This document shows, one piece after another, positions 3,928 through 40,986 of a DNA stretch of 64,000 bases (the first letter of the stretch is position 1; each line of letters starts with the position of its first letter). The stretch comes from Lachnospiraceae bacterium (GTDB lineage: Bacteria; Bacillota; Clostridia; Lachnospirales; Lachnospiraceae), in contig JAJQDE010000027.1 in the NCBI GenBank assembly GCA_021202335.1, positions 1 through 64,000 on the forward strand, given 5' to 3'. The notes beneath the pieces were generated by a model. That model was not told the origin of the DNA. It did no database searches and worked only from the letters and a program-made list of their open reading frames with translations. A program made the position numbers and the translations under genes.

Positions 3928-5139
3928 GCAGTAATGGAACATATAGCCCATGTTCGTTACGTTGCTTGTATCAAAGCTGCTGCCAAATGTTACACTCGTA
4001 AGACCGCCGCACTGGCAGAACATTTCATTCATACTTGTGACATTGCTTGTATCAAAGCCACTCAAGTCTATGCTCGTAAGGCTGCTGCAGTTCATGAACA
4101 TATATCTCATGCTCGTTACGCTGCTTGTATCAAAGCCACTCAAGTCTATGCTCGTAAGGCTGCTGCAGCCGTAAAACATATAGCTCATATCCGTAACACT
4201 GCTTGTATCAAGATTAGTCAAATCCACGCTTTCAAGCATTGCGCAGCCGTAAAACATATAAGACAGGTTCGTAACTCCCGACAGCTTCACTTCCGCGCTT
4301 TCAATAAGCACCCTGTAATCATACCATGGTATACTTGCATAATACGTCCCGCTCCCAAACTCTCCTGTTCCTTCCACGGTCAGCTTTCCGTCCTTGTCGA
4401 TAGTCCAGTCAACACTTTCATAGCTGCCGGACGCGATGTCGTCGTCCGATGAACGCAAAACAGAAACCGTTTCCTCGGACTCCTCTTCCTCATCCGTTGA
4501 AACCGTTTCCTCTTCCGATTCCGTATATTCCGTTTCAGCCGCTTCGGTCGCTTCCTCTGCGGATGCTTCCGTTTCGGTTGCTTCCTCCGGCTCCTGCGTC
4601 TGTGCTTCCTCCGTTGAAGCCTCCGCTACAGCTGTTTCCTCTGCAGCTGTTTCCACTGTGGTCTGCGTTTCCGCTTCGATTGTTTCCGCTTCGGTCTGCG
4701 TCTGCGTTTCCGCTTCGGTTACTTCCTCCGCGTCCGCAGTCTGCGGCTGCTCCGTTGCTTCCACAGACTCCTGCGTCTGTGCTCCCTCTGTTTCTTCCTG
4801 CTCCCGCGCGGACGCCTCGTCCGCTTCCTCTGTTTCCTCCTGCTCCTGCCGGGCATCCGCTGATACTGCTTCGGAAGCACGGACAGTTATAGTACCGTAC
4901 CCCCCCCAGGTATCATCACGGCTGCAAGCAGGACTGCGAGAGTTTTCTTCCAATATGTTTTCTTTCGCATCTCACATCTCCTCCTTGTTAAGCTCATTCT
5001 CCGCAGCCTGATTTTATTGTGCGCTGCGGTTCTATATGGTCTGCGTTTCCAGTATATCCGTATCCATAAGATTTTTCAAGGCAATTCCTGATTTTTGCAT
5101 GAATTTTTTCGCCCGAAACAGAAATTGCGGAATGCATAA

Positions 5140-7400: not shown

Positions 7401-7434
7401 AAGGCGGCAGCTTCCCATACGCTTAATCTGCCGC
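7400..7434. terminator. Convergent hairpin between asnB and the histidine kinase
   Basis: GGCGGCAG and CTGCCGCC pair across a 17-base loop. On the minus strand the stem is followed by TTTTA, so it best serves the kinase transcript, overlapping its last codons. Confidence 0.5.
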
Positions 7435-10116
7435 CAGCTCTTCCTCCCACTCGGCGATAATCTCCTCGCAGGCATCCACGTCAATCTCGTCCACCCCGTT
7501 TCTAAGGCGGACAAAAAGCTCCTTCTGCCTATCGTCGTAGCGGTACTCGTCCAGCCTGCCTATCGCCGCCTCCATGCCGTCAATGTCGAGCGCGTCCATA
7601 GCCTCGCGCATTTGTGCAAAAAGCCCGCTCAAAATCTGCCTGGAAGCCTCCTGCCTGTCGGCGTCATCCCTTTCCGACTGCTCGAAAAACGGCGCAAGCA
7701 CGGGAATGTATGCGCGGTACTGCTCGAGCATCGCGTCCGTATCGCGGTAAATGATGTTGGATTCACGCGCGTTGCCCGCCTCTTCCATGGCGGCTGCCTT
7801 TTCGGACAGCGACATTGCCCCTATCTGCTTAGAGGAGCTTTTCAGCGCGTGAACCTCTATGGTATAGCCCGCCCAATCTCTTTTTTCCAGCTTTTCCTGA
7901 ATGAGCGCGGATTTTTTCTCAATCACCTTATAATAATCCTTCAGCACGGACCAAAACAGCTTTTCGCTTCCGAGCATACCGATTGCCGCCCTTGTGTCCA
8001 GATCGCCGACCACAATATCCGCAGCAGGCTCCTGCTTTTTCTCCACATTGTAAAAGCCCTTTATATGCCTGATTTTTTCTACCGGAAGCCACTGCTTTAC
8101 CTTCGATATCAGCGCCCTGAACTCAATCGGCTTCGCGATAAAATCATTCATTCCCTCCTTAAGGAATAATTCCTTTACACCGTCCACCGCGTTTGCGGTC
8201 AGAGCGATAATCGGCACATCATTGTATTCCCTGTGGAAGCGCCTGATAATATGCATCGTTTCAATGCCGTCAAGCTCCGGCATCATGTGGTCCATAAAAA
8301 CGATATCATAGTGATGCTCGGATATTTTCCCGATTGCCTCCTTGCCGCTAAGCGCCGTTTCGATTTTCATTTTCAGCGGCTCCAAAAGTCCCTCAGCCAC
8401 GGTCAGGTTGATTGCGTTGTCGTCGACAATCAGCACCTCCGCGTCAGGCGCCGTGAAATTAATGTCGGCATCGTCGGCGGCTTCTTCATAATAGTGCAGG
8501 CTTTCCCTGTTAAAAATCATCGCAAGGTTCAGCGTGTAGAGCGGCTTCTTCACAAACAGCACATTAGAGAACGCAAGCTCGGAGGCGTCGTTCCAATCCA
8601 TGATGAGCACAGTCGTAATCAGAGGGTGCGCGCTGATATAGTCCTCAAGCTCGGCGGTGTAGATGCTTTTCTCCACAAACATAAATATCTGCCTGTCGTC
8701 CGAGGCGTCCGGAAGCTGCGTGTCAAACTGAAACTCATGATAATCCACGCCCAATGCAGCGCAGTCCCTTTCAAGCTGCTGCCCGACAATCATGCCGGAG
8801 GTCAGCGCATAGACCGTAATCCGGTCCGCATCCCGCACCTGAATACATTTTTCATGCTCCACAACCCTTTGCGGCAGGCTGAAGGAAAAGGTGCTCCCCT
8901 TTCCGTACTCGCTCTCCACGGACAGCTGCCCGCCCATCAGCGACACAAGCTGCTTTGAAATGGCAAGTCCCAGCCCGGTTCCCTCAATGTTTCTGTTGCG
9001 CTTGCTGTCAAGCTGCTGGAAGGACTTAAACAGCTTTCCCAAATCCTCCTTCTTAATACCGATGCCTGTGTCCTCCACGGACATGCACAGCTCGATTTCA
9101 CTGCCTGACAGCTCCCTGTGGTACATATGTATGGCAACCTTGCCCTGCCCGGTGAATTTCACCGCGTTGTTTGCGATGTTCAAAAGAACCTGCTTGATGC
9201 GGATATTGTCGCCAAACAGCTTATGGGGAATATCGGGCGAGATGTCCAAAATAAGCTCCACATCCTTATCCTGCAGGCGCGTCACCAAAATATTGCTCAC
9301 ATCGTTCACGATGGACATCGGCTCATACTCCACGGGAATGATATCCATTTTGCCCGATTCGATTTTGGAAAAGTCCAGTATATCGTTAATAATCGTCAGA
9401 AGCGCCCTGCCCGATGCCTTAATCTGATTGACGTAATCCCTCGCCGCAGGCGGCAGCTCCTCGCGCAGCGCCATCTCAGCCATGCCGATTACCGCATTCA
9501 TGGGGGTGCGGATTTCATGGCTCATATTTGCAAGGAAGTCCGATTTCATGTTGGCGGCCTTCTCAAGCTCCTTATTTGCCTGCAGCACAAGATATTTTCC
9601 GTATGCCATATCGGACAGCACATTGGAGATGGTGAACAAAAACTGCGCCGCGTGCTCGATGTTATCCTTGCTGAGGATATGCACCTTCTTTGCCGCATCA
9701 AAAAGGACGTCGGGGTCTACACCGATTTCCTCCGCCGTTTTTTTCATCTGCTCGTACTTCGGCTCCCTGTCGAGCGCCTGACCGCCGATAAAGCAGCCAA
9801 CACGCTCTCCGCCCGCAAGAATGGGCGCGGCATAGTCAATCAGCCCCGCATGGCAGTAATACAGCGCGGGCTTTCCGTTTTCAAGCGTTTCATGCGCGCC
9901 GAATTTGTCACACTGCTCGCAGCGGACACAGCCGACAGGCGATTTTCGCGTATATTCCATGCAAAATTCCGTAAAATTCGAGCCTTGCGTCACGGGTCTG
10001 CCGTCGGCGTCCGTCGTAAGCGCAGCCATGCCGGTCATCGCCGCAAACGCGTCCTGAATACGCTGCAGCACCTCCACATCCAGCAAATCCGTTAAATATA
10101 ATTCCTTTTCTTCCAT
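7423..10116 (-). CDS. PocR-domain hybrid sensor histidine kinase with receiver and Hpt domains
   Basis: Soluble sensor kinase of 897 residues without membrane segments. Domains in order: a PocR ligand-sensing domain (about 6-185) with a cysteine cluster and the motif CHAGLIDYAAPI; HisKA with SHEIRTP at His200; HATPase with G1/G2 boxes to about 415; a degenerate receiver (about 430-535); a true receiver (about 553-675) with VDD and Asp609 in FMDHMMP; and an Hpt domain with His756 in VHALKSSSK. This is a complete His-Asp-His relay in one chain. PocR domains are thought to bind small hydrocarbon derivatives and occur in cytosolic sensors. The response regulator gene lies 17 bases upstream in the same operon and is the likely partner. 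Confidence 0.92.
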   Translation of the reverse strand: MEEKELYLTDLLDVEVLQRIQDAFAAMTGMAALTTDADGRPVTQGSNFTEFCMEYTRKSPVGCVRCEQCDKFGAHETLENGKPALYYCHAGLIDYAAPILAGGERVGCFIGGQALDREPKYEQMKKTAEEIGVDPDVLFDAAKKVHILSKDNIEHAAQFLFTISNVLSDMAYGKYLVLQANKELEKAANMKSDFLANMSHEIRTPMNAVIGMAEMALREELPPAARDYVNQIKASGRALLTIINDILDFSKIESGKMDIIPVEYEPMSIVNDVSNILVTRLQDKDVELILDISPDIPHKLFGDNIRIKQVLLNIANNAVKFTGQGKVAIHMYHRELSGSEIELCMSVEDTGIGIKKEDLGKLFKSFQQLDSKRNRNIEGTGLGLAISKQLVSLMGGQLSVESEYGKGSTFSFSLPQRVVEHEKCIQVRDADRITVYALTSGMIVGQQLERDCAALGVDYHEFQFDTQLPDASDDRQIFMFVEKSIYTAELEDYISAHPLITTVLIMDWNDASELAFSNVLFVKKPLYTLNLAMIFNRESLHYYEEAADDADINFTAPDAEVLIVDDNAINLTVAEGLLEPLKMKIETALSGKEAIGKISEHHYDIVFMDHMMPELDGIETMHIIRRFHREYNDVPIIALTANAVDGVKELFLKEGMNDFIAKPIEFRALISKVKQWLPVEKIRHIKGFYNVEKKQEPAADIVVGDLDTRAAIGMLGSEKLFWSVLKDYYKVIEKKSALIQEKLEKRDWAGYTIEVHALKSSSKQIGAMSLSEKAAAMEEAGNARESNIIYRDTDAMLEQYRAYIPVLAPFFEQSERDDADRQEASRQILSGLFAQMREAMDALDIDGMEAAIGRLDEYRYDDRQKELFVRLRNGVDEIDVDACEEIIAEWEEELAAD

Positions 10117-10133: not shown

Positions 10134-10967
10134 TTATCCGATGAGCTTATTTATGGTTTCAAGCAGCTTATCGCGCGAAATGGGTTTGAGCAGATATCCC
10201 TGCGGCTTCTGCACGAGCGCCTGCGTGATTTTATCCCGCTGTGTAATACCTGTCAGGAATACAACGGGTATGTCCTTCGTCGCCCGGTTTGCGTGAAGCT
10301 TCTCCAAAACCTCGGGACCGTTCTCCTGCGGCATCTCATAGTCAAGCAAAATCAAATCCGTCGTGCGCTTCTCGAGGAATTTAAGCGCCGTCTTTCCGCT
10401 CGTCGCCGTCGCCACGTCATATGTATCGCGCAGATGCTCCTTAATCATTTTGAGCATCAGCGCGTCGTCGTCCACCACAAGAATATGCTTTCTGGCGGGC
10501 ATGGCTTCATCCAAAAGCGCCTGCGTTATTTCCGATATCGAGGGCTGCACGATGCCTGTCTGAGTCTGATGCGGGGGGGGGGTATTCTTAGCCTTTGCGT
10601 TCTCATTCATAAAGTCCGTAATTTTGCGGACAATGACGCTTACCGAAGCGGGCTTTCTCACAATCAAATCCGCAACGTTAACCGCATACCGCGAAAATTC
10701 CCGGCAGTCCTCCTCCGAAGCTATCAGCGCCACGGGAATACGGTTCTCCTCCTGGCGCCGCACCAGGAAAATGATGGACTCCATATCGCTGTTTGTCACG
10801 CCGTTCGGGCAATACACAAAAAGCTCCGGCTTAAAATATTTCATGTGGTTCCAAATGTCCTCGTATCGGCACGATGTCGTCATACATTCAAATTCGGAGC
10901 TCATATGCGCAAAAAAATCATTAATCACCGAATCGCTTTTCCCTGCCAGCAGTACCTTGTATTTCAT
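10134..10967 (-). CDS. Two-domain response regulator with a 10-base homopolymer in its linker
   Basis: The ORF track starts at a TTG; the better start is ATG at 10967, seven bases after GGGGGA. The N-terminal 120 residues resemble a receiver fold but lack clear phosphorylation residues. The C-terminal receiver (about 160-277) has VVDDD, Asp209 in LLDYEMP, a Thr in FLTG and the Lys of LLKPI. No DNA-binding output domain is present, so it probably works by protein contacts or as a relay with the hybrid kinase next door. The linker reads NTPPPHQ and is encoded by ten successive C bases; gain or loss of one would remove the only functional receiver. Confidence 0.85.
   Translation of the reverse strand: MKYKVLLAGKSDSVINDFFAHMSSEFECMTTSCRYEDIWNHMKYFKPELFVYCPNGVTNSDMESIIFLVRRQEENRIPVALIASEEDCREFSRYAVNVADLIVRKPASVSVIVRKITDFMNENAKAKNTPPPHQTQTGIVQPSISEITQALLDEAMPARKHILVVDDDALMLKMIKEHLRDTYDVATATSGKTALKFLEKRTTDLILLDYEMPQENGPEVLEKLHANRATKDIPVVFLTGITQRDKITQALVQKPQGYLLKPISRDKLLETINKLIG
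10573..10582. repeat. 10-base G/C homopolymer inside the response regulator gene
   Basis: Ten G on the plus strand (ten C in the coding strand) lie between the two receiver-like domains. The gene is in frame at this length. Runs of 8 or more G/C in coding sequence are classic slippage sites. Confidence 0.95.
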
Positions 10968-10991
10968 AAACAATCCCCCACTTCCATTTAA

Positions 10992-40955: not shown

Positions 40956-40986
40956 ATTATAACACGTAAAAAAAAAAAAATTGTGG
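40956..40986 (-). promoter_or_regulatory. Galactanase promoter with 13-base homopolymer in the spacer
   Basis: On the minus strand an extended -10 box (TGTTATAAT, hexamer at 40956-40961) is preceded by a run of 13 T (plus-strand A 40968-40980) where spacer and -35 should fall. No good -35 hexamer is visible. Tract length would set the spacing, so expression may vary by slippage. Confidence 0.55.

Follow-up and report, generated by a model that had tools for sequence, protein, structure and literature searches.

The question raised by this locus is whether a run of ten C residues within a response regulator gene allows a signalling protein to be switched on and off in an uncultured Lachnospiraceae species. 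The gene lies in the window analysed here, i.e. the first 64,000 nucleotides of contig JAJQDE010000027.1 of assembly GCA_021202335.1, a genome of 2.74 Mb in 65 contigs. On balance we favour an affirmative answer: the C10/G10 run is probably a contingency (phase-variable) tract. The run noted in the initial annotation is indeed present. On the + strand it reads GATGC-GGGGGGGGGG-TATTC, with ten G residues, and on the coding strand AAG AAT ACC CCC CCC CCG CAT CAG (K N T P P P H Q), the ten C residues encoding T-P-P-P-H in the linker between the two halves of the regulator (Table 1). Contingency loci are recognized by a G/C homopolymer of at least 8 bases in a reading frame or promoter, and the C10 tract is of this kind. 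Among the A/T runs of the window, the longest is an A13 at 40968-40980 (+).

The regulator begins at an ATG, as do its homologues (MKYKVLL); the TTG start at 10973 given by the ORF tool is 2 codons upstream. A single Response_reg domain (PF00072, E 1.1e-26) was found in the protein by Pfam, and this C-terminal receiver has the acid pocket, the phosphoacceptor Asp, the Thr and the Lys, residues D166, D167, D209, T239 and K261 being invariant in four homologues. The N-terminal half has no Pfam match. It is plausibly a degenerate receiver, because the profile of the homologues' N-terminal halves aligns end to end with that of the C-terminal receiver over 115 columns (E 7e-5, probability 35–43%). 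The adjoining gene was correctly described as a PocR kinase, Pfam resolving it as a hybrid histidine kinase of PocR-HisKA-HATPase_c-REC-Hpt architecture. Among relatives whose flanks were read, the kinase and regulator genes are neighbours both within the genus, at homologous loci, and in three named records of Lachnospiraceae type, and the two proteins are presumably phosphotransfer partners.

Table 1. Positions of the regulator, its tract and domains, the kinase and a second tract within the window
Feature	Position	Strand	Basis
5′ part of BspA/DUF285-type secreted protein gene with second tract, out of frame in assembly	4000..4970	-	
Second tract, G8-TAC on coding strand, 21 codons past gene start	4900..4907	-	
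PocR-HisKA-HATPase_c-REC-Hpt hybrid histidine kinase, conserved neighbour of regulator	7423..10116	-	Pfam
Response regulator, 277 aa, tract in inter-domain linker	10134..10967	-	
Canonical receiver domain, residues 162-272	10152..10484	-	Pfam Response_reg
C10 tract (G10 then TAT on + strand)	10573-10582	- (coding)	Window sequence
N-terminal half, probable degenerate receiver, residues 1-121	10605..10967	-	Profile-profile match

When the length of the tract was altered in silico, C8, C9, C11 and C12 gave proteins of 152, 146, 153 and 147 aa, respectively, instead of 277 aa. Every change of 1 or 2 bases deletes the only canonical receiver of the regulator, and the earlier prediction that one-base slippage would remove it is borne out for both C9 and C11. 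We envisage that replication slippage would add or drop a base in this run, one of about 15 G9-11-TAT tracts in the genome. Ten bases would give the full-length regulator, and 8, 9, 11 or 12 would end translation after 146-153 aa, just beyond the presumed degenerate receiver. Such a shortened regulator would have no phosphorylatable receiver with which to take up phosphate from the PocR hybrid kinase, and a fraction of the population would be uncoupled from the PocR signal. An early stop in translation just upstream of the kinase gene may, in addition, lower kinase expression; this is possible, not certain, since the kinase gene starts 17 bases 3′ of the regulator stop codon and has its own AAGGAG. 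A Met codon lies 3′ of the tract (MPARKHILVVDDD) and could, in principle, restart translation of a free receiver in shifted alleles.

The tract has company in its own genome, where TAT follows 15 of the 17 runs of at least nine G residues with a clean 3′ end, that of the window included, for a binomial P of about 5e-21 on base composition. One of the 15, at C49:17807, adjoins an assembly artefact and is to be discounted. Of 605 short G runs (G3-G6) in the window, 21 (about 3.5%) are followed by TAT, and G7 followed by TAT was found at 15 sites in the genome as against 2 for the reversed control. The ATGC found 5′ of the window tract is likewise common to other sites of the class. The window has a further member of the class in the G8-TAC tract of the BspA/DUF285-type gene (Table 1).

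We classified 115 distinct sites of this class by context. About nine are spacers in promoters with the form TTGACA-N9-Gn-TATAAT (also seen as TTGACA-N9-G10-TATAAT), namely L033, L135, L144-L146 and L153 among others, and nearly all of the remainder lie in ORFs whose coding strand carries the G residues, several just after a signal peptide. Products at the scanned sites include BspA-type LRR_5/DUF285 surface proteins, GDPD, sugar-transfer ATP-grasp and epimerase proteins, Acyl_transf_3, DUF6044/6020/6056, PIG-L deacetylase, methyltransferases and a sulfatase, while some products have no Pfam match. Of the scorable coding sites, about 43 have a reading frame that stays open across the tract and 29 have a shifted one, as judged by a mechanical test on stop-free frames rather than by gene calls. 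Tract length also differs between close homologues, both between the paralogues L031 (G9, open) and L034 (G10, shifted) and between the orthologues L137 (G9) and L162 (G10), which are 96.6% identical downstream. The class to which the window tract belongs is, in short, a genome-wide set of tracts in typical phase-variable genes. Given the surface genes, the mixed frames, the length differences between close homologues and the promoter-spacer tracts, we regard the G9-11-TAT class as probable contingency loci that would mediate random on/off switching of surface genes in Lachnospiraceae, and phase variation is well supported for the class as a whole.

Some individual sites in the source genome may be mentioned here. 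At L033:1153-1162 (G000:C10) a TTGACA-N9-G10-TATCAT spacer precedes a gene with an RBS and a signal peptide, in a porA-like arrangement. Sites L035, L041, L043, L032, L044 and L034 lie in BspA/LRR-type and GDPD genes and carry G9-10-TAT; the consensus of the assembly shows every one of them out of frame.

Through the genus, G8-TAT gave 176 matches against 8 for the reversed motif in 38 genomes, 25 of which have it, with 15-34 matches per genome in the closest relatives. The rest of the family (297 other genomes; totals copied by hand) gave 248 against 42; the class extends to the family more thinly than through the genus. A sample drawn class-wide has a G9-TAT match in 27 of its 293 genomes. 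Among the 150 G9 runs listed, the 3′ flank is TAT in 93, TAA in 24 and TAC in 11. The richest genome seen, G207, belongs to another Lachnospiraceae genus and has 56 G8-TAT matches against 6 reversed in 1.6 Mb at 68% completeness. G021 and G011 are among the relatives in which there is no match.

One candidate cause of the TAT flank and one of the long tracts were rejected. TAT is not a codon or amino-acid effect, because it occurs in all three downstream reading frames (32, 27 and 23 sites) and in the promoter members too. Loss of mismatch repair is likewise no reason for the long tracts, MutS1 and MutL being intact both here and in G017, G020, G027 and G029, which are relatives rich in tracts. 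Since these proteins are intact, slippage here may be rarer than in Campylobacter, where rates of 1e-4 to 1.6e-3 per division are reported without mismatch repair (PMC8355987). We found no description of a class of such tracts in Lachnospiraceae in the open-access literature, outside which most subscription journals lie. We put forward, as a tentative possibility, that the long G tracts of Lachnospiraceae and scattered other Clostridia form a class so far unrecognised, ending 3′ mostly in TAT (otherwise TAA or TAC) in all frames and in promoters. These might stem from a sequence-specific process at the DNA level that generates, maintains or slips tracts although mismatch repair is intact, and that has reached regulators like this one, giving heritable cell-to-cell differences in signalling. 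The family-wide G-run-TAT class is more surprising than the regulator locus itself.

Several other explanations of the window tract have to be weighed against phase variation. That it is an ordinary run of proline codons has some arithmetic behind it, as CCC makes up 25% of proline codons. With codons used as they are in the window, a TPPP peptide would be encoded by at least ten consecutive C residues with a probability of 0.012, and when all ORFs of the window are shuffled synonymously, 0.077 (about 0.08) runs of at least ten are expected per window; these figures are unusual, but do not settle the matter alone. However, the tract shares its TAT flank with 15 of the 17 long G runs in the genome and its ATGC 5′ flank with other sites, which makes it a member of the class and takes it clearly beyond chance, and we consider a chance run very improbable. 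More improbable still is an artefact of assembly or of the reads. Other poly-C/poly-G stretches in this assembly do look artefactual, lying at contig ends and beside N gaps and in one case by adapter-like sequence, but the window tract is mid-contig, within an ORF that is open and conserved, the sequence to either side of it is unique, and its class recurs in many independent genomes. Probable assembly artefacts of that kind are the N10 gaps flanked by 33-52 bases of poly-C at G000:C65:159547-159706 (L030) and G000:C49:17807-17970 (L028); the adapter-like sequence is at the C49 gap, and the C65 gap is just before another receiver gene. The least probable of these explanations is that G10-TATTCT on the + strand serves as the spacer and -10 box of a promoter for an antisense transcript. 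Promoter-type members with TTGACA-N9-Gn-TATAAT do occur in the genus, this genome included (L033), yet no -35-like hexamer is seen at 10545-10572 when the sequence is read by eye, and there is no downstream gene on the + strand, the neighbours being on the - strand.

A more serious rival is that the process, of whatever kind, by which G-run-TAT tracts are made or kept has left this run as a by-product in a tolerant linker, with slippage a tolerated cost and no selected switch; we hold this to be rather unlikely. The tract is absent from all 32 homologues of the regulator and confined to this species, and the linkers of the homologues vary in length and sequence, which together suggest that it probably arose in this lineage. 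As no homologue has it, comparison between species gives no sign of selection at the site. Mixed proline codons in homologous linkers had been proposed as an argument against slippage, but these linkers have no PPP at all and the comparison does not apply. The tract is also antisense to its gene, with the G strand non-coding, an orientation that it shares with a single other site, L154, among the 115. All of this would suit a by-product, as would the independence of TAT from reading frame, which argues that the tracts are shaped at the DNA level and not by the protein. On the other hand, any slip of 1 or 2 bases removes the only canonical receiver of the conserved partner of the kinase, and for this reason one would expect synonymous changes to interrupt a tract that was purely neutral; such an unbroken run is expected in only 1.2% of TPPP codings. 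We infer that the tract probably slips in vivo and that switching at it may be under selection; it may be a switch recruited by selection or, with less probability, a by-product tolerated in a loose linker. The claim that this tract phase-varies is supported in part: the run exists, has the length needed for slippage, alters the frame when it changes and belongs to the class. The other antisense site, L154:1508 (G060:C14:21708), is a C9 run coding YPPPG in an AraC-type cupin regulator. Both antisense sites are in regulators, and two cases prove nothing.

The phase-variation reading also has to be placed among known systems. Bordetella pertussis bvgS, reportedly described by Stibitz in 1989 in a study listed in PMC11868660, is said to be a case of frameshift switching of a two-component protein. 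That protein is a sensor kinase, and the window tract is in a regulator, but in both a frameshift would affect a two-component protein. In Campylobacter, homopolymer frameshifts switch the response regulator FlgR and its kinase FlgS (flgR/flgS; PMC8355987), although the tracts there are short A/T tracts and the changes are described as irreversible, in contrast to the 10-base C tract described here. Phase variation of signalling proteins is known within the Clostridia themselves from CmrRST, pdcB and pdcC of Clostridioides difficile (PMC11868660), where pdcB and pdcC are governed by invertible promoters rather than by the slippage proposed here. Phase-varying signalling proteins are, then, already known (bvgS, flgR/flgS, C. 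difficile CmrRST and PdcB/PdcC), and the suggestion in the initial annotation that phase variation of such a protein would be notable holds, though with these precedents.

For the class as a whole, the closest likeness is to the poly-G contingency loci of the Campylobacter jejuni phasome (cgtB and others), with tracts of G8-11 (PMC6437147, PMC8355987). The two sets have in common coding-frame tracts in surface-glycan genes and mixed on/off states; they differ in that, here, mismatch-repair genes are present, a 3′ TAT is conserved, the host belongs to the Clostridia and one tract is in a response regulator. The promoter-type members (L033, L135, L144-L146 and L153) resemble in architecture Neisseria meningitidis porA, which phase-varies via a promoter poly-G tract (PMC3639595); the window tract is coding instead.

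The frame-independent TAT flank is a concrete clue to a mechanism that would make or keep such tracts. If the response-regulator switch is real, a whole pathway would vary between cells, beyond one antigen. A poly-G contingency set in Lachnospiraceae, if likewise true, could explain the strain-level surface diversity of the family.
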